The notes under the pieces are model-generated. The model was not told the DNA's origin, searched no databases, and worked only from the letters and a program-made list of their open reading frames with translations. From Thiomicrorhabdus lithotrophica (GTDB lineage Bacteria; Pseudomonadota; Gammaproteobacteria; Thiomicrospirales; Thiomicrospiraceae), in the NCBI RefSeq assembly GCF_029201445.1, contig NZ_CP102381.1, forward strand, positions 1,674,001-1,738,000: DNA of 64,000 bases, in the 5' to 3' direction. The position numbers and the translations under genes were made by a program. Shown here one piece after another: positions 3,899-54,885 of this stretch (positions within the stretch are counted from its first letter, which is position 1; the number at the start of each line of letters is the position of its first letter).

Positions 3899-4543
3899 AT
3901 GAGTTATTCGGTCAAAGAAGTATTCTACTCCCTGCAAGGAGAAGGATTTCATAGTGGACGACCTGCTATTTTTTGCCGAATGAGCAAATGCAACCTTTGG
4001 ACCGGAAGAGAGGCTGATCGCGCTGAAGCCGTTTGCCAATTTTGTGATACCGACTTTATTGGTACCGATGGTCAAAATGGCGGCAAGTTCGTGGATGCAG
4101 AAACACTCTGCCAACACTTATTGCAGTTCTGGCCTCAAGACACTTTAGCAAAGCCTTTTGTTGTTCTAACTGGTGGTGAGCCACTGCTTCAAGTAGATAA
4201 TACACTCATTCAAGCCTTGCACTCCCACCAGTTTGAAATAGCTGTGGAAACGAACGGCACGAAAAGCGCACCGGCCGATATTGACTGGATTTGTATGAGT
4301 CCAAAAGCCAATGCCCCAATTATTTTAGACTGCGGCCATGAATTAAAACTGGTTTACCCACAACCAGATTTGATGCCAGAAAAAGTGGCCAACCTAGATT
4401 TTGAATACTTCTATCTCCAACCTATGGACGATAAAGATCCAGAGGTAAGTCAAAACAATATTAAACAGGCGGTAGATTATTGCTTAAAGAATCCACAATG
4501 GCACTTAAGTTTACAAACTCATAAGTTACTAGGGATTGATTAG
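3899..4543 (+). CDS. queE: 7-carboxy-7-deazaguanine synthase
   Basis: This 214-residue radical-SAM enzyme converts 6-carboxytetrahydropterin to 7-carboxy-7-deazaguanine, a step towards queuosine in tRNA. The N-terminus (VKEVFYSLQGEGFHSGRPA) is typical. The cluster motif is the divergent C31-x14-C46-x2-C49 form of many proteobacterial QueE proteins, not the standard CxxxCxxC, because the segment WTGREADRAEAVCQFCD is inserted. TGGEPLLQ matches the SAM-binding GGEP motif. It is divergent from leuC and no other queuosine gene is in the window. An AAGGAAG ribosome site lies just ahead of the chosen ATG. Confidence 0.95.
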   Translation: MSYSVKEVFYSLQGEGFHSGRPAIFCRMSKCNLWTGREADRAEAVCQFCDTDFIGTDGQNGGKFVDAETLCQHLLQFWPQDTLAKPFVVLTGGEPLLQVDNTLIQALHSHQFEIAVETNGTKSAPADIDWICMSPKANAPIILDCGHELKLVYPQPDLMPEKVANLDFEYFYLQPMDDKDPEVSQNNIKQAVDYCLKNPQWHLSLQTHKLLGID

Positions 4544-4608
4544 CTTACTCACTGCTTATGAGTAGCTGACCTAAATTTAGAGTGAATATCGATAAAACAG
4601 CACAATAC

Positions 4609-4620
4609 ACCAGGCCTGGT
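4609..4620. repeat. Iterated palindrome ACCAGGCCTGGT, exact copy
   Basis: Exact copy in the gap between queE and rlmD, 40 bases ahead of the rlmD start. Confidence 0.9.
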
Positions 4621-4659
4621 AACTTACAATAGCGCTTAAAAAATCCTCAAAGGCATAAA

Positions 4660-5901
4660 ATGCAAACAAATAACGACATACAAGAAGCAATTACAATCGA
4701 AAACCTCTCGCATGATGGCCGAGGTATCGCTCGTATTGAAGGTAAGACTGTATTTATTGCCAACACCGTTCCAGGCGACATCATCAGTTTGCGCATTACA
4801 AAACAACAAGACAAATATGACGAAGCTGAGTTAATTAACATTGAAACGCCATCTGCCGACAGAGTTGAACCTTTTTGTGCTTTATACAATCAATGCGGCG
4901 GTTGCCAACTGCAGCACGTTAGCATTGATGCTCAACGTCATTTCAAAGCAGAAAACTTCATTACCCGTTTAACCCAAGCAGTGAACTCTAAAAACTGCAA
5001 AATTAGTCCACCGCTAATTGGAAATGATAAAAACTACCGCAGACGTGCTCGCTTTGGCTTATCTATCAGCAAAAAAGACAAAATTGCTCGTTTAGGTTTT
5101 CGTGAAAAGGCCTCTAATGAGCTAATTGATATTGAACAATGTCCAATATTAACGCCTGGCCTAAATCAAGCCTTAGCAGAACAACGCCCCCTGCTATTAG
5201 AGCAAGCCAGCCGAGCCTATAAAGAGATTACCTTTGTTGAAGCCGATAATGGCGTGTTTGTTACCAATAGCACCAGTGATGAACCTAGCAGCCTAGAACC
5301 TTGCTATAAAACTGAAGGCCTGAATATCCACTTTCCAGCAGATGGATTTATTCAGGTAAACAGCCTTCAAAATGAACAGATGATTAATCAAGCGATGAAT
5401 TGGCTAGAACTAGAATCAAAACACAAAGTATTAGACTTGTTTTGTGGTGTAGGAAACTTTACTTTACCGATTGCGAAAAAGGTTAAAAGCGTTACAGGTA
5501 TTGAAGGTTTAGCTGACTTAGTGGCAACCGCCTCAAGTAACGCAAGAACTAACGAAATAGACAATGCCGACTTTTTTAAAGCTGATTTGTTTGACGAATG
5601 TCACAAACTACCTTGGTTTAGAACCCAAAAGTACCACCGAGTATTGTTAGATCCAGGCAGACAAGGCGCATTTGAAATCAGTAAAGTTTTACACTTACTG
5701 AAAGCCGAAATTATCGTGTATGTCTCATGTAATGCTGCAACCTTAATTAGAGATATTCAAGAACTGGAAAAACAAGGTTATCAGCTTTACAAAGCAGGCC
5801 TGGTAGATATGTTTCCACATACAACTCATACAGAAGTCATGGTGCAACTTAAAAAAGCCAAACCACCTAAAAAGAAGAAATCAAATATCTTTCGCTTTTA
5901 G
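4660..5901 (+). CDS. rlmD: 23S rRNA (uracil-1939-C5)-methyltransferase RlmD
   Basis: The 413-residue product methylates U1939 of 23S rRNA using SAM. An N-terminal TRAM domain (about residues 5-65) is followed by the [4Fe-4S] cysteines of FCALYNQCGGCQLQH and a later IEQCP. The Rossmann SAM motif is LDLFCGVGNFTLPIA, the nucleophilic Cys lies in VYVSCNAATLIRD, and the final Glu is in TTHTEVMVQL. The order and spacing fit RlmD (RumA), which is about 430 residues long. A near copy of the palindrome lies inside the gene at 5793-5804, encoding Ala-Gly-Leu-Val. A strong intrinsic terminator follows. Confidence 0.95.
   Translation: MQTNNDIQEAITIENLSHDGRGIARIEGKTVFIANTVPGDIISLRITKQQDKYDEAELINIETPSADRVEPFCALYNQCGGCQLQHVSIDAQRHFKAENFITRLTQAVNSKNCKISPPLIGNDKNYRRRARFGLSISKKDKIARLGFREKASNELIDIEQCPILTPGLNQALAEQRPLLLEQASRAYKEITFVEADNGVFVTNSTSDEPSSLEPCYKTEGLNIHFPADGFIQVNSLQNEQMINQAMNWLELESKHKVLDLFCGVGNFTLPIAKKVKSVTGIEGLADLVATASSNARTNEIDNADFFKADLFDECHKLPWFRTQKYHRVLLDPGRQGAFEISKVLHLLKAEIIVYVSCNAATLIRDIQELEKQGYQLYKAGLVDMFPHTTHTEVMVQLKKAKPPKKKKSNIFRF
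5793..5804. repeat. Iterated palindrome, near copy inside rlmD
   Basis: AGCAGGCCTGGT, one base off the consensus, read in frame as Ala-Gly-Leu-Val in RlmD. Confidence 0.7.
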
Positions 5902-5936
5902 TAATAAAAACGTCAAAAGCGCACAATATTTAAATC

Positions 5937-5960
5937 GAGAGGCTCAAACGCCTCTTTTTT
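5937..5960 (+). terminator. Intrinsic terminator after rlmD
   Basis: AGAGGC and GCCTCT form a 6-bp stem with a six-base loop, followed by a run of six T. It lies 36 bases past the rlmD stop. Confidence 0.8.
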
Positions 5961-6125
5961 GTAGCTTTAATAAACAAACTCCATTTAATCAACGAGCTAT
6001 AACCTATTAAATAGAATGTAGAACATTTCATGACTTAATGATATAGTTCAACTTAACAATTAAATTAGCCAAGACTAACTTTTTATTTAGCCAGTGATAA
6101 TCTTAGCCAAAAGAACAATAAAAAC

Positions 6126-7037
6126 ATGAAGATAAATAACAAACCAACTTTAATTAACACCTTTATTTTAGGCTTAACCCTTTTTACGGCAAGCTTTACG
6201 AGTCAAGCACAACTTAATATCATTACCACCACAGGCATGATTGCTGACCTAGCCCAAAATATTGGCGGCAAACACGTTAAAGCAACCTCTCTTATGGGAA
6301 CGGGCGTCGATCCGCACTTATATAAAGCCACACAAGGTGATTTAAGACGTCTGACCCGTGCAGACATTATTTTCTATAACGGCCTCCATTTAGAAGGCAA
6401 GATGCAAGAAATCTTCGAAAAGCTGGCTCGTAAGAAAACTGTCGTTGCCGTTGGTGCAAACATAGACCAAAACAAATTAATGCACCACGGCAGTTATCCT
6501 GACCCACATATTTGGTTTGACTTGAGCTTATGGCAACAAGCAGGGCAACGCGTATTAGAAACACTTCAAGAACAAGACCCAAAACATAAAGCAGATTATC
6601 AAAATCAAGCAGATGAATATCTAAAGCAAATGGCAGAACTAGACTCTTGGATCAAACAACAGATATTAGAAGTACCAGAAAACCAGCGAATTCTCATTAC
6701 TGCGCATGATGCCTTCGGTTATTTTGGTAAAGCTTACGACATTAAAGTAATGGGACTGCAAGGCATTAGTACCGCAGCTGAATTTGGTCTTCAAGATATC
6801 AAAAAGCTAAAAAATGTCATCGTAAAAAACAATGTTAAAGCGGTCTTTGTAGAATCGAGTGTATCACCGCGTTTTATTGAATCTTTAGTCGCTGGTGTAA
6901 CGGCCGAAGGTCATAAGGTTGTCATTGGTGGCGAGCTCTACTCTGATGCAATGGGACCTCAAGGCACACCAACCGATAACTACTTTGGCATGGTAAAACA
7001 CAACGTGCAAACCATTGTTAATGCGTTAAGACAGTAA
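6126..7037 (+). CDS. Metal ABC transporter substrate-binding protein (TroA/ZnuA family)
   Basis: This 303-residue periplasmic protein has a signal peptide (residues 1-29, cleavage near SQA-QLN) and is a cluster A-I metal-binding protein of the ZnuA/TroA/PsaA class. Metal ligands are expected at His in MGTGVDPHLYKATQGD, His in SYPDPHIWFDL, Glu in VFVESSVSPR and Asp in ELYSDAMG. There is no long His/Asp-rich loop of the ZnuA type, which suggests manganese or iron rather than zinc; this is inference. It is the first gene of a four-gene uptake operon and is preceded by a 224-base gap that may hold its promoter. Confidence 0.92.
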   Translation: MKINNKPTLINTFILGLTLFTASFTSQAQLNIITTTGMIADLAQNIGGKHVKATSLMGTGVDPHLYKATQGDLRRLTRADIIFYNGLHLEGKMQEIFEKLARKKTVVAVGANIDQNKLMHHGSYPDPHIWFDLSLWQQAGQRVLETLQEQDPKHKADYQNQADEYLKQMAELDSWIKQQILEVPENQRILITAHDAFGYFGKAYDIKVMGLQGISTAAEFGLQDIKKLKNVIVKNNVKAVFVESSVSPRFIESLVAGVTAEGHKVVIGGELYSDAMGPQGTPTDNYFGMVKHNVQTIVNALRQ

Positions 7038-9251: not shown

Positions 9252-10153
9252 TGCTAAGTGAATTAGGTATGAATGACGTTTGGATAATCGCCACGGCAAG
9301 CTTAGTCGCAGCTGCTTCTGCTTTAGTGGGCGTCTTTCTCATTTTACGTAAACAAGCCCTTATTGGTGATGCAATCAGCCACTCTGTCCTTCTAGGGATT
9401 GTGCTAGCGTTCCTTCTAACTGATAGCCACTCTTTACCCGTCATGTTAGCGGGTGCGGTATTAATTGGACTCTTAACCGCCTGGCTAAGTGACACCTTGC
9501 ACAGAGTAGGTAAACTACAGAGTGATGCCAGTATCGGTATTGTCTTTACCCTGTTTTTTGCCATCGGCGTAATTTTAGTCTCACTCTATGCTGGCCAAAT
9601 TGACCTAGACCAAGAGTGTGTTCTTTATGGTGAAATTGCTTTTGTTCCATTTGATACGATTTATATTGGCGGTTTAGAGAGCGGGACAGATATTGGCCCA
9701 AGAGCTTTTTGGGCAATCGGCATTGTTTTTATGATTGTTTTAGCTAGCATCTTACTCGGATTTAAACGATTAGAAACCATCGCTTTTCATCCAAACTTAG
9801 CCTTATCACTAGGGATTAACGTTGTATTTTGGCATTACTTTTTAATGACTTTGGTCTCAATGACAACGGTTGCGTCATTTGATGCCGTTGGCGCTATTTT
9901 AGTGGTCGCCTTACTAGTGATACCAGCCAGTAGTGCTTACTTATTGGCAAACTCTTTAAAAGCGATGCTATGGATTGCCGTAGCGTACTCTCAAGCATCG
10001 GTAATCATTGGTTATAGCTTGGCATTCACCTTAGACAGTTCAATTTCTGCATCCATTGCGGTAAGCGCAGGCATATTGTTATTTATAACGATTGCAGCAT
10101 TACAAGTACAAAAAGCCGTTATGCGTTTAAAGAAAGTAGCCGTTACGAATTGA
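9251..10153 (+). CDS. Metal ABC transporter permease, second subunit
   Basis: This 300-residue ABC-3 permease has about eight to nine membrane segments and the conserved coupling loop LRKQALIGDAISHSVLLGI near its N-terminus, matching the first permease. It lacks the regulatory tail seen on its neighbour. Two different permeases with one ATPase and one binding protein is the TroABCD/SitABCD arrangement, so this is likely the TroD-type partner of a heterodimeric membrane channel. The start codon overlaps the stop of the upstream permease (TAATG). After the stop the palindromic repeat separates it from the convergent HAD gene. Confidence 0.93.
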   Translation: MLSELGMNDVWIIATASLVAAASALVGVFLILRKQALIGDAISHSVLLGIVLAFLLTDSHSLPVMLAGAVLIGLLTAWLSDTLHRVGKLQSDASIGIVFTLFFAIGVILVSLYAGQIDLDQECVLYGEIAFVPFDTIYIGGLESGTDIGPRAFWAIGIVFMIVLASILLGFKRLETIAFHPNLALSLGINVVFWHYFLMTLVSMTTVASFDAVGAILVVALLVIPASSAYLLANSLKAMLWIAVAYSQASVIIGYSLAFTLDSSISASIAVSAGILLFITIAALQVQKAVMRLKKVAVTN

Positions 10154-10169
10154 TGTAACTAAAATAACT

Positions 10170-10181
10170 ACCAGGCCTGCT
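10170..10181. repeat. Iterated palindrome, near copy
   Basis: ACCAGGCCTGCT, one mismatch, in the 45-base gap between convergent genes (metal permease and HAD phosphatase). Confidence 0.75.
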
Positions 10182-10198
10182 TACTGTTTAAACGATAG

Positions 10199-11035
10199 TT
10201 AATCGCTTTTTAGAATGGTTTTTTGAAGATAAACAGCCACACCATCTACCGCATTAGAGTTAGCAAGAATTGCATTAGGTAACAGCGTTTTTACCTGTTC
10301 ACTTGCATTATCCATGACAACAGCATGTCCTACCAAATTCAACATTTCAATGTCATTCATGCCATCCCCTAAAGCCATTACCTCTTTAAACGATAACGCT
10401 CTCTGCTTTAACACCATCTTTAAAGCTTGTCCTTTTGACACACCTAAATTCATCACCTCTAGGTACTCAGGCGAAGTAAAGGTAATGCAAAGCTGTTGGG
10501 ATAAATGCTGTTTCAATAACGTTTCTAGTTCAACTAACTTGTCATGCTCAGCGGTAAAATAAATTTTATCAATGTGCGCTAAATCAATTGCTGAAAAGTC
10601 GCATATTTTATATTTAAAACCCGATTCATGGTGAATTGCCAACAGTGCTTCATGTGGTTCCTCAACCAGCCAAAAATCTTGTTGATAAAGATTCCTGTGA
10701 ACGTCAAAGCCTTCAGACAAATAAAGTACCTTTTTGACAAGATGAGATGGCATATGATTTTCATACAATAGTTCTCCACTAGAGTTATGAACCCGTGCAC
10801 CATTAGAAGTAATCAGACATATATCCACATTTAACTGCTTTGCAATAAGATAAACATCTTGATAATGGCGGCCTGTCGCTAACATAAACTGAACACCTTG
10901 TTCGACCAATGCTTTTACCGCATCAATGGTAGATTTTGTAAGTTTATGTTCAGAGTTCAGTAGCGTTCCATCCAAATCGGATACCACCATTTTTACTGGA
11001 ACATCCATAAGCGTATCAGTCTTTAAAGTAGTCAA
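10199..11035 (-). CDS. Cof-type HAD-IIB family hydrolase
   Basis: The 278-residue cytosolic protein belongs to the Cof/SupH branch of HAD phosphatases, which dephosphorylate sugar phosphates, flavin or PLP-type substrates. The nucleophile motif is VVSDLDGTLLNSEHKLT (two Asp in DxDGT), motif II is FMLATGR, and motif IV is ALGDGMNDIEMLNLVG, with a C2B cap in between. The substrate cannot be told from sequence. An in-frame ATG at residue 10 (MDVPVKM) is an alternative start. It is convergent with the metal transporter and followed on the same strand side by a BFD-like gene upstream. Confidence 0.92.
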   Translation of the reverse strand: MTTLKTDTLMDVPVKMVVSDLDGTLLNSEHKLTKSTIDAVKALVEQGVQFMLATGRHYQDVYLIAKQLNVDICLITSNGARVHNSSGELLYENHMPSHLVKKVLYLSEGFDVHRNLYQQDFWLVEEPHEALLAIHHESGFKYKICDFSAIDLAHIDKIYFTAEHDKLVELETLLKQHLSQQLCITFTSPEYLEVMNLGVSKGQALKMVLKQRALSFKEVMALGDGMNDIEMLNLVGHAVVMDNASEQVKTLLPNAILANSNAVDGVAVYLQKTILKSD

Positions 11036-11044
11036 AATAAAGTT

Positions 11045-11056
11045 ACCAGGCCTGGT
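11045..11056. repeat. Iterated palindrome ACCAGGCCTGGT, exact copy
   Basis: Exact copy between the HAD and BFD-like genes. It ends three bases before the end of the BFD-like gene. Confidence 0.9.
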
Positions 11057-11058
11057 GA

Positions 11059-11331
11059 TTATATAGAAGTGTTATCAGAAGCATTATCAAGATGTGAATC
11101 ACCTGATTTGTCAGAAGGATGTAATAGTTCAATCAAGCGTTCAACCTGACGAACACAACAACCGCTCCCTTGGCATGCATAGGTTTTATTGCTCACCTCT
11201 TCTAAGGTTTTAGCTCCTTGTTTAATGGTATCAATAACATCTTGTTTGCTAACGTCATAGCAAACACAGAGGTTTTTGTTTAGATTTTTGGTGAGTTCAC
11301 GAGGAAGTTCATTTGTTTCTTTATTTGGCAT
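11059..11331 (-). CDS. BFD-like [2Fe-2S] protein
   Basis: This 90-residue protein has the four cysteines of the bacterioferritin-associated ferredoxin / NirB-type Fer2_BFD fold: CVCYDVSKQDVIDTIKQGAKTLEEV carries the CxC pair, and ACQGSGCCVRQVERLI carries the second pair about 30 residues later. The family binds a [2Fe-2S] cluster and either donates electrons for iron release or forms part of larger oxidoreductases. Both termini are polar and low in complexity. No bacterioferritin gene is nearby, so its partner is unknown. Confidence 0.85.
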   Translation of the reverse strand: MPNKETNELPRELTKNLNKNLCVCYDVSKQDVIDTIKQGAKTLEEVSNKTYACQGSGCCVRQVERLIELLHPSDKSGDSHLDNASDNTSI

Positions 11332-11668
11332 AAAGCTTATTTTAGCCTAAGAATAGATTTTTCTAATGTTTTGAATGAAATTATTCATTACAAAAAATTT
11401 ACAAAACACTTTATGCTTTAAGACCTTGGCTTTTTTATTTTATTCTCAGTTGCTTAAAGTTGAAGCTTCATGCTAGGGAGTTTTTATCATGAAGCTCTAA
11501 CTCTTTAGCCATTAAATAACGGACAATATGCGCACTATGTTCTGAAAATATGTCATCAAATTGAAATGAGTTTTTTAATCCATTCTATAATTTGCCAGAC
11601 CAAAACAATTGAATTAACGTTTTTTATGTCACACTTAAATTAGCTCGGAGTTAAACGCTCTTCAAATA
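11332..11668. other. Non-coding gap with a long imperfect inverted repeat
   Basis: No convincing gene is seen in these bases. The main structure is an imperfect inverted repeat at 11458-11502 (15-base arms, two mismatches, around AGCTTCATG and CATGAAGCT). The rest is AT-rich and would include the promoter of the BFD-like gene. Confidence 0.5.
11458..11502. repeat. Imperfect inverted repeat
   Basis: Arms AGTTGAAGCTTCATG and CATGAAGCTCTAACT match as reverse complements at 13 of 15 positions and enclose a 15-base loop. No T-run follows on either strand, so it is not a standard terminator. Confidence 0.6.
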
Positions 11669-11694
11669 AAAAAAGCACCCTAAGGTGCTTTTTA
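11669..11694 (-). terminator. Intrinsic terminator after the SulP gene
   Basis: AAAAGCACC and GGTGCTTTT pair around a four-base loop, with T-runs on both strands. It lies 20 bases beyond the SulP stop on the minus strand and could act in both directions. Confidence 0.85.
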
Positions 11695-11712
11695 ACAAAC
11701 TAAACTCAATGT

Positions 11713-13305
11713 TTAATTGGATTTACCACTAGTGGAAACATGGTAATGAGGGTCTTCTGAAACATTCACCTCAATCAAATCTTTCGCATCTTCCAGCAAA
11801 ACCTGGCACTCTGGACTTAAATGTTGAAGCGTAAGTGTTTTACCTGCCTTAAGGTATTTCTTGGTTAAACCGTTAATCGCTTCAAGTCCAGTATGGTCAT
11901 AAACACGAGAGTGTTTAAAGTCTATACGCACACAATCAGGATCATTTTTAGGGTCAAACATCTCAATAAAGTTTTGTGCCGATGCAAAGAACAATGGCCC
12001 TTGAACTTTATAAGTTTTAATCACTTTGCCATCAATCTCTTCAGTTGTTTCTTGCAGGATAATACGTTGAGCATGTTCCCAAGCAAATACCAACGCAGCC
12101 ACAATAATACCAGCAATCACCGCTACCGCTAAATCAAACATCACCGTCAAAACCGTTACCATGACCATAACAAAAGCATCCGCCTTAGTCATACCGCGCA
12201 TAATGTTCCAGCTTGCCCAGTTAAAAGTCGCAATGACTACAAAGAACATCAAACCAACTAAAGCACCGATTGGTACCATTTCAATCCAAGAAGAAGCAAT
12301 CAAAACAATTACCAATAAACCTAATGCCGCGCTTATACCAGACCAACGCCCTGTTCCGCCAGAGTTAACGTTAATCATAGATTGACCAATCAATGCACAA
12401 CCACCCATCGTTCCAAAAGAACCTGCTGTACAGTTAGCCGCACCTAAAGCAATACACTCTTTGTTGGCTTTACCACGAGTTTCAGTAATATCATCAATCA
12501 ATGTCATGGTTAACAACGATTCAACCGAGCCGATAATGGTCAAAATGACCGCATAAGGTAAAACAATCCATAAGGTTGCTAAAGACCAAAAGCCTTCAGG
12601 CAAAGTCGTAAACCAGCTTAAACCTTGAAAACCACCTTCCACACCATCACCGTAAATTAAAGATTCAAGCGTACCTGAAACAGATGCCTTATCACCTACG
12701 GTCACCGCATTAATATCAAAGAAAATGACCGCTAAAGAGACCAATACAATCGCGGCTAAAGCAGAAGGAACCGCTTTAGTAATTCTAGGAAGTAAATAAA
12801 TAATAGCCAGTGTCGCAACAATAATCATAATCATGATATTTAAGCTGTCACCTGATAACCAGTTACCTGATGCATCTTTAAATTGTGTGAACTGAGCAAC
12901 AAGGATAATGAGCGCTAAACCGTTAACGAATCCGAGCATAACCGAACTCGGTACCATGCGTATAAACCGCCCCCATTTCATTACTCCGATAAATATCTGG
13001 AATACACCCATCATAATAACGGCTAAGAATAAAAATGAAGCACCATGTTCCATCACTAAATGCATCATAACAACGGCAAGCGATCCAGCTGCCGCAGTAA
13101 TCATTCCAGGACGACCACCAAACACGGCCGTAATCATTCCCACAATAATGGCTGCATAAAGCCCCACTAATGGATGAACACCCGCAACAAAAGCAAAAGC
13201 GACCGCTTCCGGCACTAGTGCTAATGCAACGGTAATCCCAGAAAGGGTATCGTTTTTATAGGTTTGCCACTGAAAGGGCTGCCCAGGTTTAGTGGAATGG
13301 CTCAT
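11713..13305 (-). CDS. SulP family inorganic anion transporter
   Basis: The 530-residue inner-membrane protein has the SulP core: VTVALALVPEAVAFAFVAGV in the first helices, NGLALIILVAQ, and VESLLTMTLIDDITETRGKANKECIALGAANC, which contains the SulP signature. About 12 hydrophobic segments run to residue ~410. A C-terminal STAS domain (about 425-520) contains the typical RIDFKHSRVYDHTGLEAI segment. SulP proteins carry sulfate, bicarbonate or other anions. In related autotrophs some act as bicarbonate importers, so that role is possible but not shown by sequence. The gene stands alone. Confidence 0.92.
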   Translation of the reverse strand: MSHSTKPGQPFQWQTYKNDTLSGITVALALVPEAVAFAFVAGVHPLVGLYAAIIVGMITAVFGGRPGMITAAAGSLAVVMMHLVMEHGASFLFLAVIMMGVFQIFIGVMKWGRFIRMVPSSVMLGFVNGLALIILVAQFTQFKDASGNWLSGDSLNIMIMIIVATLAIIYLLPRITKAVPSALAAIVLVSLAVIFFDINAVTVGDKASVSGTLESLIYGDGVEGGFQGLSWFTTLPEGFWSLATLWIVLPYAVILTIIGSVESLLTMTLIDDITETRGKANKECIALGAANCTAGSFGTMGGCALIGQSMINVNSGGTGRWSGISAALGLLVIVLIASSWIEMVPIGALVGLMFFVVIATFNWASWNIMRGMTKADAFVMVMVTVLTVMFDLAVAVIAGIIVAALVFAWEHAQRIILQETTEEIDGKVIKTYKVQGPLFFASAQNFIEMFDPKNDPDCVRIDFKHSRVYDHTGLEAINGLTKKYLKAGKTLTLQHLSPECQVLLEDAKDLIEVNVSEDPHYHVSTSGKSN

Positions 13306-49123: not shown

Positions 49124-50581
49124 ATGGATTTGATTAGCCTCTATCCTACTTGGTACGAACCGATGGTCGGTTCTGGCTGGGTAGTAGCACTAATCGCAAC
49201 CTTTCATGTTCTTGCCTCCCACACTTCTGTGGGTGCGGCCATGTTATTTGCGTATCTTTCACACAAAGCTTACCGCGAAGATCGTGACGATCTTCTAGAA
49301 TTCGTCAAGAAATACGGTCTCTTCTTAATGGTGTTTACCTACGTAGCCGGCTCTATCACAGGCCCTGGTATTTGGTATTCAACCACTGTAGCAAGCCCTA
49401 ACGGTATTGGTGCTCTTATACATTCTTTTGTATGGAAATGGGCTACTGAGTGGGTCTTCTTCGTAATCGAAGTTGTTGGTGTATATATGATTGTTTACCT
49501 TGTTGGTAAGGTAGATAAAAGAACTCACATGAAAATCTCTTTAATATTTGGTATTGCCTCTTTTGCAACCATGATTATTATCGTCGGTATTCTGTCTTTC
49601 ATGATGATGCCTGGTAAAGAAGCTTGGTTTAATGATGGTGGATACTTAAATGGTTTCTACGGAACGAATACATTCATCCAGACAGGTATGCGTGTTGCAT
49701 TCATGTTCACAATGACTGCGGTTGTTGGTGGTATTGTAATTGCCGGCATTAAAGACCCAGCCTTCAAAAAAGAGATGGCACGTAAACTGGGTTGGTTAGG
49801 GATTATCTCAACACTGACTGGTGCAGCTCTATTCCAGTGGTATATCACTGCAGTACCTGATCAAGCATTACTGGTAATGGAAAACCGTTTACCGGCTTAT
49901 TTTGGACCAAGCATCATGATTGTGTTAGCTGGTACCCTATCTTATTTCATCGTAACGATGCTTAAGCCAAAAATAATTGTTGAAAGTTTTGCGGGTGCAA
50001 TGGCTATAATCATACTGGTTGCAGGTTTATGGCCTGAAGAAACGGCTCGTGAATCGATGCGTAAACCATATGTTGCTGGTCAATACGTATACTCGAACCA
50101 AGTAATTGGTCGAGATGTACCAGGAATGGGAATTAAATCAGATCTACCTACTATTGAAAAAGTCGGTATTTTAAAAGCACATCCATTTACTCCTGAACAC
50201 TTAAAAACAGTAAATGCAGGCAACAAAATCCAAGCTGGTGAATATATCACTATGGTTTATTGTTCAAACTGCCACTCACCAAGTAAAACAGGAATCCGCC
50301 CTCTTCACCGTTACTTCCCTGATGGCGTAACAGAAGAACGTATGCAAAAGTATGTTAAGGGTGTTCTAACAACCGGTAATATCGCTTACATGCCAAAAAT
50401 GCCAATGTTAGATTCTGAAATTGAAGCTATTTCTGCCTATCTGGTTATGAATAATGACGGTGGCCAAAAAGCAATTACAGCCGCCATTCAACAAGAAGTA
50501 GATAACCGTAATCGCGCTTTAGCAGAAAAAAACGCAACGGATAAAGTTGCTGCGCTTGAAATCTCACAGGAGGTGAAATAA
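49124..50581 (+). CDS. Cytochrome bd subunit I (CydA)-like protein with C-terminal cytochrome c domain
   Basis: The 485-residue protein has about eight membrane helices (residues 15-330). The first contains ATFHVLASHTSVG, with His28 at the place of the CydA haem-b ligand, and WATEWVFFVIEVV carries two Glu like the paired E99/E107 of CydA. A periplasmic tail holds one c-type haem site, CSNCH (380-384), with a later MPKMPML as likely sixth-ligand region. No CydA Q-loop is evident. It is the first gene of a six-gene operon with flavocytochrome c. It may be an oxygen reductase or an electron-transfer subunit. Confidence 0.7.
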   Translation: MDLISLYPTWYEPMVGSGWVVALIATFHVLASHTSVGAAMLFAYLSHKAYREDRDDLLEFVKKYGLFLMVFTYVAGSITGPGIWYSTTVASPNGIGALIHSFVWKWATEWVFFVIEVVGVYMIVYLVGKVDKRTHMKISLIFGIASFATMIIIVGILSFMMMPGKEAWFNDGGYLNGFYGTNTFIQTGMRVAFMFTMTAVVGGIVIAGIKDPAFKKEMARKLGWLGIISTLTGAALFQWYITAVPDQALLVMENRLPAYFGPSIMIVLAGTLSYFIVTMLKPKIIVESFAGAMAIIILVAGLWPEETARESMRKPYVAGQYVYSNQVIGRDVPGMGIKSDLPTIEKVGILKAHPFTPEHLKTVNAGNKIQAGEYITMVYCSNCHSPSKTGIRPLHRYFPDGVTEERMQKYVKGVLTTGNIAYMPKMPMLDSEIEAISAYLVMNNDGGQKAITAAIQQEVDNRNRALAEKNATDKVAALEISQEVK

Positions 50582-51828
50582 TGGATGCTTCACAAGTTGC
50601 TCAAGTAACTGACATGATGTACGCCTTACGCAACCCTGCAGGTGTACCAACTTATCCAATTATCTTCATTGGTTTAGGTGTTTTAACTTTTGCCCTACAT
50701 ATTCTTTTTGTACAGCTTATGTTAGGCACTTCAGCCATTACGATTTTTGGTGCTTTTAAAGACGATGCGAAGTGGCGTCGTCTTGCTGCTGCTATGCTTG
50801 AAATTTCGAAGGTTTCAGTATCAGTAGCGATTGTAATTGGGGTTGCCCCGTTACTGTTTGTACAGGTTGTCTATGACCCACACTGGTACACGTCAAACGT
50901 ATTATCAGCAAATTGGGTAATTGGTTTTATCATTATATTAATCTTTGCTTATTGGGCTATGTATGCTTATTACTTCATGAATAGCAAAGAGAAAGATAAA
51001 ACTAAAGAACCTAAAGGCAAAATATGGATGTTAGTCAGCCTAGCGCTAATGCTAGTAGTTGGTTTCATTATGCACAGCTTAACCTCACAAATTCTGCACC
51101 CAGAATTATGGAAAGAGTGGTACTTACAAAACGGCGTACTTGATTACTCAGGTTCTAAATTACATGCTAATAACCTTTGGCGCTTTGCTTTCTTTATCAG
51201 CATGGCTATTCCTGTAACAGGTGGCATGCTCGTAACTTACCGTCGTTTTAAAATGGTTCGTGAAGATGCTGATCATGAATACCTAAACTGGGCTGCTAGT
51301 GTTGGTAAAAAATGGATCAAAGTAGGTTCTGTTATCTCTGCCGCTTTATATGTAGCATGGATGTTAACCATTCCTGAAACAGCTGGTGATTTTGCAACCT
51401 CTTTCTGGGGCATTATTGGTGGTGTAATGGTTCTATTCTATGCGATTTGGGCACAAGTACGCCTTAATGGTGAAGCGATGTTCTGTAGCTATATGGCTCT
51501 ACCAATGGCACTAGTTATTGGTTTGGTTGTCGCAATCTCTCGTGAGATGTTGCGTTATGGAATTCTTGATGGCTTCTTTGGTTACGACTTTATGGACTAT
51601 AAAATCGTAATGGACTGGTATTCAACTGGTATGTTTTTCTTAACCTTTGCCATTGTTGGTGGTTCAGTTTTAGCTTACTACCTCACCATTGCATGGAAGG
51701 TCGGTCAAACCGTTGGTGTTTATACACCAAGTCCGTTTGTTAACCGTCTTGGAACGATTGCTCTTTGGATACTAGCCATTTGGACACTGCAATTCTTCGT
51801 AGTTGGTTTCTACGTTTGGGCGCAATAG
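50581..51828 (+). CDS. Second integral membrane subunit of the bd-like complex
   Basis: The 415-residue protein has eight or nine membrane helices. The first is GVLTFALHILFVQLMLGTSA, again with a His at the position of a haem ligand, and others follow, including LEISKVSVSVAIVIGV and NWVIGFIIILIFAYWAMYAYYF. It has no cytochrome c motif. It looks like a distant paralog of the N-terminal part of the upstream protein rather than CydB; homology should be tested. The start overlaps the upstream stop (TAATG), so equal amounts are made. Confidence 0.65.
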   Translation: MDASQVAQVTDMMYALRNPAGVPTYPIIFIGLGVLTFALHILFVQLMLGTSAITIFGAFKDDAKWRRLAAAMLEISKVSVSVAIVIGVAPLLFVQVVYDPHWYTSNVLSANWVIGFIIILIFAYWAMYAYYFMNSKEKDKTKEPKGKIWMLVSLALMLVVGFIMHSLTSQILHPELWKEWYLQNGVLDYSGSKLHANNLWRFAFFISMAIPVTGGMLVTYRRFKMVREDADHEYLNWAASVGKKWIKVGSVISAALYVAWMLTIPETAGDFATSFWGIIGGVMVLFYAIWAQVRLNGEAMFCSYMALPMALVIGLVVAISREMLRYGILDGFFGYDFMDYKIVMDWYSTGMFFLTFAIVGGSVLAYYLTIAWKVGQTVGVYTPSPFVNRLGTIALWILAIWTLQFFVVGFYVWAQ

Positions 51829-51834
51829 GAGAAT

Positions 51835-52212
51835 ATGATGAAAACAAAATTATTAATTAGCGCCTTTGCCCTTACGCTTGCACAACCAGTATTAGCCGAA
51901 GGTCAAAACCCAATTGCTACTGGTGCAGCAATGGCATGGCAGTGTGCTCCTTGTCACGGAACAAATGGACAAGAATTTTTAGAAGCAATGCCTCCATTAG
52001 CAGGTATGCCTGTAGAGCAATTTACTAAAGCGATGATTGCTTATCGTGAAGGTACGCGCCCTGCCATTATTATGGACCGCGTTGCACGTGGTTTTACAGA
52101 TGCTGAAATTGATGCCATGGCAGTATGGTTTGAAAAACAACCGCTTAAGCAGTGGGAAAACACGAGCTTAAATGAAGCCCAAAAGGTAAATTCGACAGGA
52201 GGTCAAAAATGA
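51835..52212 (+). CDS. Monohaem cytochrome c (FccA-like)
   Basis: The 125-residue protein has a signal peptide (MKTKLLISAFALTLAQPVLA) and one haem site, CAPCH (residues 37-41), with the usual GTNGQ following and a likely Met ligand in MPPLAGMP or later. It resembles the small cytochrome subunit of flavocytochrome c sulfide dehydrogenase. Its stop overlaps the start of the flavoprotein gene (ATGA), as for partner subunits. Confidence 0.85.
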   Translation: MMKTKLLISAFALTLAQPVLAEGQNPIATGAAMAWQCAPCHGTNGQEFLEAMPPLAGMPVEQFTKAMIAYREGTRPAIIMDRVARGFTDAEIDAMAVWFEKQPLKQWENTSLNEAQKVNSTGGQK

Positions 52213-53540
52213 GCCAGTTAGAAAATAAAACTTTTGATCAAAAAATCACGCGACGTGACTTAATCAAAGTATTTGGTGCTGCTGCTGTTGCAGGAACAGG
52301 TATCTTTGGCGCTAGCTCAAAAGCCTTCGCAAAATCTGCAGCACATGTTGTGGTTTTAGGTGGTGGTGTTGGTGGATCCACTTTTGCCAAATACCTACGT
52401 TTTGCCGATCCTGATGTAAAAATCACCATTATCGAACAAGAGCCTGAGTACATCACTTGCTTAAGAAGTAATGATGTTATTGTGGGTATGCACACTTTAG
52501 ATGAACTAACATTCAATCTAAATACCGTAAGTTCAAAATACAATATCAATGTCATTATTGATAAAGTCATCGGTGCAGATTTTGATAAGAAAACCGTGCG
52601 AACTGCAAAAGGTGAAACGGTTTCTTACGATAAATTAGTTGTGTCTCCAGGTATTGATTTCAAGTTTGAAGACTATGAAGGTTATGATGCTGAATTGGCT
52701 GCGGGTGACTTCCCTCACGCTTATAAAGCTGGACCACAAACACTTAAACTTAGAGAACAACTGCTTGCTATGCCGCAAGGTGGGACAGCCATTATTGCGA
52801 CTCCGCAAAACCCTTTTCGTTGCCCTCCCGGGCCATACGAAAGAGCCTCATTTTTTGCAGAGCATTTTAAAAAGCACAATCCAACCGCTAAGTTAATCGT
52901 GCTTGATCCTAAAGACCGCTTCACTAAAGATGGTCCTTTTAAAAAGGCATGGGAACGTTTATACGGATATAAAACGGATAACGCATTAATTGAATGGGTT
53001 TCAGGTTCTGATGGTGGTCGTGTTGTACGTCTAGATGCTGCAAACAAAATGGTTGAAACGGATGGCGGTGATTTTAAAGCTGACTTAATCAATATCATTC
53101 CTAATCAACGTGCTGGTGTATTGGCTCAAAAACTGGGTTTAACTAATGCTTCTGGCTGGTGCCCTATTGAACGCAATACTATGGAATCTTCTCTTCATAA
53201 AGAAGTCTATGTATTGGGTGATAGTTCTATTGCTGATGCAATGCCCAAATCAGGGTATTCTGCAAACTCACAGGCTAAAGTTTGTGCTCAAGCCGTTGCA
53301 GATACTCTAAAAGGTCAAAACCCGGGCAAAGCGATTTACTCAAACGTATGTTATAGCTTAGCGGGAGAAAACTATGGTGTTTCAATAGCCGCTATTTATG
53401 AGGTACGTGATGGCTTGATTAAACCAAAAGGTAAATCTGCAGGTGTTTCACCTATTACAGATAAAACTGCACAACCTATTCTAGAAGCCGTTTACCAAAA
53501 GAACTGGCAGCGTGAATTTGTTAAAGATGTGTTCTCTTAA
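52209..53540 (+). CDS. fccB: Flavocytochrome c sulfide dehydrogenase, flavoprotein subunit
   Basis: The 443-residue periplasmic FAD protein oxidises sulfide. It has a twin-arginine signal (TRRDLIKVFGAAAVAG), the FAD-binding VVVLGGGVGGSTFAKYLR, and the redox cysteines of FccB: Cys205 in NPFRCPPGPYERAS and Cys318 in SGWCPIERNTMESS. The C-terminal region contains VYVLGDSSIADAMPKSGYSA, typical of the FAD-binding end. Tat export fits folding with bound FAD before transport. It is coupled to the preceding cytochrome. Confidence 0.95.
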   Translation: MSQLENKTFDQKITRRDLIKVFGAAAVAGTGIFGASSKAFAKSAAHVVVLGGGVGGSTFAKYLRFADPDVKITIIEQEPEYITCLRSNDVIVGMHTLDELTFNLNTVSSKYNINVIIDKVIGADFDKKTVRTAKGETVSYDKLVVSPGIDFKFEDYEGYDAELAAGDFPHAYKAGPQTLKLREQLLAMPQGGTAIIATPQNPFRCPPGPYERASFFAEHFKKHNPTAKLIVLDPKDRFTKDGPFKKAWERLYGYKTDNALIEWVSGSDGGRVVRLDAANKMVETDGGDFKADLINIIPNQRAGVLAQKLGLTNASGWCPIERNTMESSLHKEVYVLGDSSIADAMPKSGYSANSQAKVCAQAVADTLKGQNPGKAIYSNVCYSLAGENYGVSIAAIYEVRDGLIKPKGKSAGVSPITDKTAQPILEAVYQKNWQREFVKDVFS

Positions 53541-53563
53541 TTAAAAGTAGTGAGGAAAAAGAT

Positions 53564-54268
53564 ATGTTAAAACAGACTTTATTAGTCACTGCTTTAATTG
53601 GTACAACACTTGCCAGCAGTGCGGCCTTTTCAGGTCACGGTGAAAAACCACATGCCACGCCATGGTCTAACTTTGCTTTAGAAAATAAAATCAAAGCGAT
53701 GCCTAAAGGAGATGCTTTAAAAGGCCAAAAAGTTCATGAACAGATGATGTGTAACGCTTGTCATGGTGAAAAGGGTGAATCGCCTTCACGTAACTACGCT
53801 TCTTTAAATGGCCAAACAGCAGAATACACCACCAAGATGATGTTAGATTATCGTGATGGTCGTCGCTGGGAAGACTATAAACAAGCCAATATTATGGTGA
53901 AACTTGCCAAAGCAATGGACGACCAACAAATTGCGGATGTTGCAGCATTTTATGCTAGCAACCCATCTACAGTTTGGGATATTGAAACTCAACCGGTTAC
54001 TGCAAAGATTGATCGTTTAGTGCGCAAGGGTGATGTTAGCCGTATGATTGTTCCATGTGCTTCATGCCATGGCGCCCACGGAGAAGGTAAAGGGATTACT
54101 CCGGCTATTGCTGGACAAGTCCCAGAATACTTTGTTCGTACAATGAAAGCCTACCAAACTAAGCATCGTAAAAATGATGTTGCAGAAGGTATGGCACAAT
54201 TTACCCATGACTTAACAAGCGATGAAATCCAAGCTCTAGCGGATTACTACGCAACGTTAAATAAGTAA
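53564..54268 (+). CDS. Dihaem cytochrome c (c4-like)
   Basis: The 234-residue protein has a signal peptide (about residues 1-22) and two haem motifs, CNACH (63-67) and CASCH (165-169), one per domain, as in cytochrome c4. Both domains contain MPKGDALKGQ- or KGDVSRM-type leads and MMLDYRDGRRW / TMKAYQTKHRK helices. It probably shuttles electrons between flavocytochrome c and a terminal oxidase. It belongs to the operon, 23 bases after fccB. Confidence 0.9.
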   Translation: MLKQTLLVTALIGTTLASSAAFSGHGEKPHATPWSNFALENKIKAMPKGDALKGQKVHEQMMCNACHGEKGESPSRNYASLNGQTAEYTTKMMLDYRDGRRWEDYKQANIMVKLAKAMDDQQIADVAAFYASNPSTVWDIETQPVTAKIDRLVRKGDVSRMIVPCASCHGAHGEGKGITPAIAGQVPEYFVRTMKAYQTKHRKNDVAEGMAQFTHDLTSDEIQALADYYATLNK

Positions 54269-54278
54269 GGAGACAAAC

Positions 54279-54377
54279 ATGAACGGAATTAAAGCCATTA
54301 TTTGGGGTCTAATTTTAACGTTTGGCTCTATTGCGTTAATGTGGTGGTTAAGTACCATCACAGTTGTTGCGGTTTAA
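54279..54377 (+). CDS. 32-residue membrane peptide (CydX/CbdX-like)
   Basis: An AAGGAG ribosome site lies seven bases before an ATG that opens a 32-codon frame, MNGIKAIIWGLILTFGSIAL and then a MWWLSTITVVAV end. It has a single membrane helix and an N-terminal WG-like motif, similar in size and shape to CydX/CbdX, the small subunits of bd oxidases. It ends the operon just before a terminator. Confidence 0.6.
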   Translation: MNGIKAIIWGLILTFGSIALMWWLSTITVVAV

Positions 54378-54594: not shown

Positions 54595-54885
54595 ATGAAA
54601 ATATTAAAAACCTTATCGATACTTGAAGGCTCCTCACTTCTACTATTACTATTCCTTGCCGTTCCTTTAAAACGCATGTTAGACATGCCTGAAGCGGTAT
54701 CTATAATTGGGCCTATTCACGGTGTACTGTTTATTGCATTTAATTTAGCACTCATTATTGCGGTAGGTAAATCACAGCTAAAAGCAAGCTATGGCCTAAT
54801 TGGGTTTATCGCTTCACTGATCCCGTTTGGCAGCTTTGTCTTTAAAGCAAAACTGCTCAATCAAACACCAGATTCATCACTTTAA
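54595..54885 (+). CDS. DUF3817 family membrane protein
   Basis: The 96-residue protein matches DUF3817: LKTLSILEGSSLLLLLFLAV, the MLDMPEAVSIIGPIHGVLF stretch and LIPFGSFVFKAKL at the end, with three membrane helices. Function is unknown. It is 15 bases upstream of a SLAC1/TehA-type gene and starts a four-gene run with little spacing. Confidence 0.82.
   Translation: MKILKTLSILEGSSLLLLLFLAVPLKRMLDMPEAVSIIGPIHGVLFIAFNLALIIAVGKSQLKASYGLIGFIASLIPFGSFVFKAKLLNQTPDSSL

Follow-up and report, generated by a model that had tools for sequence, protein, structure and literature searches.

In the cytochrome bd-II oxidase of Escherichia coli, haem b558 is bound by His186 and Met393, haem b595 by Glu445 and haem d by His19 (PMC8585947), and the bd oxidases of this organism are insensitive to 58 µM sulfide, the half-maximal inhibitory concentration for bo3, one of the sulfide-sensitive haem-copper oxidases, being 1.1 µM (PMC4815019). 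It is unsettled whether those branches of the bd superfamily that do not use quinol reduce O2, and who donates their electrons; in two reports, the OR-N enzymes are described as likely cytochrome-c-oxidising CydAA' pairs and are still termed putative or uncharacterised (PMC10839748; PMC12342949). The genes for flavocytochrome c sulfide dehydrogenase, fccAB, lie in neighbourhoods whose surrounding genes were not conserved, according to one published survey (PMC6382920). We report here an operon of Thiomicrorhabdus lithotrophica that joins the two systems, found in a stretch of 64,000 nucleotides (contig NZ_CP102381.1, positions 1,674,001 to 1,738,000; 'the window' in what follows). We consider it fairly probable that this operon encodes a quinone-independent, cytochrome-c-fed reductase of the bd superfamily, acting probably on O2, with FccAB as its dedicated sulfide module.

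The operon consists of six co-directional genes on the + strand, spanning 49124–54377, whose neighbours overlap or are separated by gaps of less than 25 bases. An earlier note on this DNA, made from the letters alone, had listed these compact reading frames and their motifs, and all are at the places it gave. The features are as follows.

49124..50581, + strand: gene A, predicted bd-superfamily (CydA-fold) subunit, 485 amino acids, with a C-terminal haem-c domain
Gene A, + strand, candidate ligands and channel residues from alignment and conservation: H28, H33, E109, E116, R190, E310, R313
50581..51828, + strand: gene B, predicted CydA'-like paralogue of A, 415 amino acids, overlapping A by 1 base
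Gene B, + strand, residues of interest from conservation and alignment: H40, H165, E322xxR325
51835..52212, + strand: gene C, monohaem class-I cytochrome c, directly upstream of FccB
52209..53540, + strand: FccB, flavocytochrome c sulfide dehydrogenase flavoprotein, overlapping C by 4 bases
53564..54268, + strand: gene E, dihaem class-I cytochrome c (c4/FccA-like)
54279..54377, + strand: gene X, 32-amino-acid peptide with a single transmembrane segment
54418..54445, + strand: intrinsic-terminator-like hairpin, a 12-pair stem and T run, the probable end of the operon

There is no CydB-type gene within the operon, as the earlier note had seen, and a profile search of the host genome, a single contig of 2.5 Mb, gave no match to the CydA family PF01654. 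The closest named relatives in the genome collection belong to Thiomicrorhabdus, Hydrogenovibrio and Thiomicrospira.

A structure model of gene A, built from 34 sequences, places the protein in the cytochrome bd superfamily, with the fold of CydA. CydA chains take all of the top 10 places in a Foldseek search with this model, and in VIA-align E. coli CydA scores Z 23.4 (310 residues aligned) and Geobacillus CydA 23.3, the next other fold being alternative complex III at Z 17.3. PF01654 is reported for 26 of 34 homologues of A (best E 1.2e-5), and the Thermus homologue reaches 5e-4, below the cut-off. The C-terminal part (residues 365–449) matches class-I cytochromes c and carries one CxxCH motif (380–384) and Met423, so that the CydA-like protein with a terminal haem-c domain proposed in the earlier note is borne out; this domain was also the sole match when the PDB was searched by sequence with A and B.

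The residues retained in A are those of the active-site side. Across 42 A proteins, which span 27–93% identity and include Thermus and Agrobacterium relatives at 27–32%, H28, H33, E109, R190, E306, R309, E310, R313, the CxxCH motif and Met423 are invariant. In the alignment with E. coli CydA, H28 falls on H19 and E116 on E107. The invariant motif RExxRKP (E310, R313, P315) resembles E445/R448/P450. At the position of the b558 ligand H186, A has R190, an arginine in 42/42 proteins, and the alignment shows no counterpart in A of the Q-loop and M393 region. We infer that quinol oxidation has been lost and the di-haem active site kept, which agrees with the suggestion that this is a bd-superfamily member without a quinol site. 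The haem-ligand comparison that had been proposed gave an equivalent for H19, and a tentative one for E445/R448 that comes through a short motif. These same residues bear on the idea that A-B shuttles electrons from cytochrome c to the quinone pool or back, as a quinone reductase or oxidase or for uphill electron entry, and does not reduce O2. The next closest folds are indeed quinone-reactive membrane subunits, those of alternative complex III (Z 17) and of polysulfide reductase (Z 14), and these autotrophs need reverse electron flow, but with H186, M393 and the Q-loop region lacking counterparts in A, and with the active-site-side residues the ones kept, we think this reading quite unlikely.

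Gene B, which the earlier note had called simply a second polytopic protein, is a polytopic membrane subunit as stated there, and is better described as a CydA paralogue of A. Its model (predicted local distance difference test, pLDDT, 87) gives Z 25.7 in VIA-align to CydA of E. coli bd-II, followed by alternative complex III at 17.5; in each of the ten bd entries of the fold comparison the best-matching chain is CydA, although Foldseek with the B model lists CydB too. Because the B model fits CydA best and hhalign relates A to B at E 1.7e-8, sequence profiles and models together indicate that A and B are paralogues forming a CydAA'-like rather than a CydAB pair; the assignment of B as CydB is ruled out by this paralogy and by the better CydA match. 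In B, H40 and R325 are conserved in 42/42 proteins and E322 in 38/42. Structure prediction and profile searches of both membrane proteins, a check named in the earlier note, therefore gave the CydA fold for A and B alike.

The association with FccAB extends well beyond this genome. Searching by A alone yielded 60 loci, 48 of which had enough contig around them, and in 48/48 of these A, B, C, FccB and E are all present, for which reason the operon cannot be put down to chance; the joining of a bd-like complex to FccAB, which the earlier note had seen, is genuine and widespread, and within the sample it is exclusive. Two gene orders occur, A-B-C-FccB-E and C-FccB-A-B-E. The carriers are gammaproteobacterial (Thiomicrorhabdus, Thiothrix, Halothiobacillus, Thioalkalivibrio, Marinobacterium), betaproteobacterial (Thiobacillus, Thiomonas, Rubrivivax) and alphaproteobacterial (Roseospira), and phylum-wide sampling added few further A proteins. 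T. heinhorstiae (locus L006) holds two tandem operons whose A-B genes are identical over 2705/2705 bases and whose C-FccB-E sets differ. The exact identity of the two A-B copies (3999–6703 and 9756–12460 of that locus) stops within 14 and 3 bases of the block, a pattern of either gene conversion or an assembly effect; unless it is the latter, it gives the impression of a single oxidase working with interchangeable dehydrogenases.

The operon FccB is itself distinctive. It has the FCSD_central (7e-42) and FCSD-flav_bind (7e-16) domains, a twin-arginine translocation (Tat) signal, the two redox cysteines recognised in the earlier note (C205 and C381) and C84 for linking flavin adenine dinucleotide (FAD). 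Both redox cysteines are found in 53/53 operon FccBs. In a maximum-likelihood tree these 53 proteins group in a single clade (98/99) that leaves out 20 stand-alone FccBs, and in an enlarged tree 58 operon and 31 stand-alone proteins still separate; the 13 added stand-alone copies scored best when 369 gammaproteobacterial genomes were scanned without guidance from A. That the operon simply holds any FccB is ruled out by this tree, the added copies included: the operon FccB is a dedicated clade tied to A-B. The FAD-linking cysteine, called a conserved feature of flavocytochrome c in one source (PMC12010331), is replaced by Pro or Gly in 25/53 operon FccBs, which suggests that FAD is bound non-covalently in those branches. 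The loci without Cys at the equivalent of codon 84 lie within L021–L059, in the betaproteobacterial, Thiothrix and Halothiobacillus branches. The host genome has a second FccB (G000:C1:1994102-1995382, L145), which is 48% identical, is preceded by a dihaem FccA and falls in the stand-alone clade.

The earlier note counted a monohaem and a dihaem cytochrome c, and C and E have one and two CxxCH motifs, respectively. Their roles within FccAB need some revision: in nearly all stand-alone fccAB pairs examined, the cytochrome directly upstream of FccB has gene C as its best match, so the monohaem C, standing in the FccA position, is likely to be FccA. Gene E as FccA is weakened by this finding and by E staying with A-B where no FccB adjoins (L103). 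Another such locus (L104) has a fusion of B with a dihaem cytochrome c, and two second A-B copies in the same genus are accompanied by a short monohaem c. Because E, a dihaem fusion or a monohaem c accompanies A-B even where FccB is missing, gene content points to A-B plus a c-type cytochrome as the core and to C-FccB as the sulfide module. Gene X is a real gene, for 20 loci have it in this position, and 12 copies of equal length differ by 75, 30 and 233 changes at codon positions 1, 2 and 3. Its description as a CydX-like peptide fares less well: it occurs only in Thiomicrorhabdus, Hydrogenovibrio and Thiomicrospira loci, a single group of genera, and it has no match at E 1 in Pfam, including CydX, 32 amino acids being short for a profile. 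X as CydX is on that account doubtful. Downstream of the operon, at 54595–54885, lies a DUF3817 membrane protein, and small membrane proteins that seem similar follow gene E in the Hydrogenophilales loci L030, L035, L038, L042 and L058; this protein may therefore belong loosely to the module.

In more distant relatives A-B is retained and FccB is missing, a cytochrome c being usually present. Several of these copies adjoin genes for a histidine kinase (HATPase/HisKA) and for a response regulator, which was Fis-type in the cases tested, a RegBA-like make-up judged by domain content. Such neighbours could be taken to mean that A-B is merely a membrane anchor or an electron-flow sensor for FccAB and the cytochromes, whose electrons would then pass to soluble cytochrome c and cbb3, and membrane-bound flavocytochromes c are reported from Thiobacillus sp. 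W5 and Ectothiorhodospira vacuolata. An anchor would not be expected to keep its candidate haem-ligand residues strictly invariant across 27–93% identity, and we hold this explanation to be very unlikely. A further proposal, that A-B is a cytochrome-c-fed detoxifying reductase of nitric oxide (NO), peroxide or sulfur species, can point to E. coli bd, for which side activities with NO and peroxide are established, and to the fact that sequence cannot reveal the acceptor; retention of the bd-superfamily active-site residues, and redox-sensing two-component neighbours that fit respiration, make it unlikely.

Among the farther relatives, A-B pairs of methanotroph-like genomes lie near genes resembling those of soluble methane monooxygenase (MmoX-like N-termini, by eye; L105 4581-10031, L103 17736-17999). 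On a Methylosinus plasmid (L170 7001-14522) an A-B-cytochrome c-kinase-regulator run adjoins the methanobactin genes mbnF and mbnM, hinting at a copper-free oxidase used when copper is scarce. Plasmids of Thermus thermophilus carry A-B alone, 32% identical (L171 6001-8567). Another bd-superfamily-like protein (806 and 606 amino acids; L139 6322-8742, L140 7017-8837), with a partial PF01654 match, shares its gene run with several c-type cytochromes.

Returning to a cytochrome-c-fed bd-type reductase, the operon would form a membrane-anchored, quinone-independent electron-transfer chain for sulfide oxidation. Periplasmic FccB would oxidise sulfide at its FAD/disulfide site and hand the electrons on to C (FccA), its monohaem partner; the dihaem cytochrome E would then deliver them to A at its haem-c domain, and the A-B heterodimer, CydAA'-like and devoid of the quinol-side haem b558, would carry them to a two-haem site in A (H28, E310). 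There A-B would most likely reduce O2, with protons drawn from the cytoplasm via E116/E109; because the electrons are periplasmic and the protons cytoplasmic, turnover would charge the membrane. We favour O2 as acceptor because the active-site side is conserved, because some neighbours are RegBA-like and because the host genome has a single haem-copper oxidase, cbb3. If A-B were as resistant to sulfide as E. coli bd, sulfide could be respired at levels that poison this one haem-copper enzyme. The fullest version of the proposal, a self-contained, electrogenic, quinone-independent and sulfide-resistant membrane-bound sulfide:oxygen oxidoreductase, in which a dedicated FccB, FccA and dihaem c feed a c-haem-bearing CydAA'-type enzyme across alpha-, beta- and gammaproteobacterial sulfur oxidisers, is offered tentatively, its chances being a little under even.

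Several points weigh against the proposal. In Pfam the A protein of the window itself gives no strong match to a bd family, PF01654 not being reported for it, and its hhalign comparison with the CydA profile is weak (E 0.01), so that the fold comparison had to carry the case with a model of only moderate quality (pLDDT 74). The equivalence of E310 and E445 comes from a short-segment alignment (P 0.05) and from the last part of the structural match to 5doq (322 to 390), where E310 falls on residue 378, the Geobacillus Glu ligand; the equivalent of E99 is one residue off. We found no purified member of the A-B group in the literature, and soluble cytochrome c with cbb3 could just as well take the electrons of FccB.

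Were the proposal true, it would add a third route of sulfide respiration besides SQR-quinone and FccAB-cytochrome c-cbb3. Gene linkage names a donor, FccAB, for a non-quinol bd branch, and does so in culturable sulfur oxidisers. On plasmid records the pair is named 'cytochrome c' and 'hypothetical protein', so that annotations hide the system.

Compared with known systems, A-B shares with canonical cytochrome bd (CydABX) the fold of both membrane subunits, the His of transmembrane helix 1, E107 and an E445/R448-like motif. It differs in lacking the haem-b558 ligands (H186, M393) and the Q-loop that mark the canonical quinol enzymes (qOR), in a second subunit nearer to CydA than to CydB, and in its added haem-c domain. 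Compared by description, A-B shows the traits of OR-C/OR-N: no quinol site, paired CydA paralogues and a c haem. OR-C enzymes are said to carry c haems, which serves as a lead only. Like the OR-C/OR-N enzymes (Murali, Gennis and Hemp 2021), A-B combines a CydA fold without quinol-side ligands with the pairing of two CydA paralogues, and the family probably lies in one of these already catalogued branches, OR-C profiles having been applied to Pseudomonadota in one study (PMC11707229). The literature searched, which excludes the Murali 2021 original, held no description of the A-B group together with FccAB, in keeping with the earlier note, and this real and conserved coupling is apparently undescribed. 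With FccAB the operon shares the FccB domains, the two redox cysteines, the FAD-linking Cys (in the window copy) and a cytochrome gene directly upstream; it differs from ordinary FccAB in an FccB clade of its own, in loss of that Cys in 25/53 and in the extra dihaem cytochrome and membrane pair. Finally, the membrane-bound flavocytochrome c of Thiobacillus sp. W5 (Visser et al. 1997), which a later source quotes with a Km of 1.7 µM for sulfide (PMC3504083), is likewise a membrane sulfide dehydrogenase of a colourless sulfur bacterium; the link is only a lead, and if the proposal is true, membrane-bound flavocytochrome c may gain an explanation.

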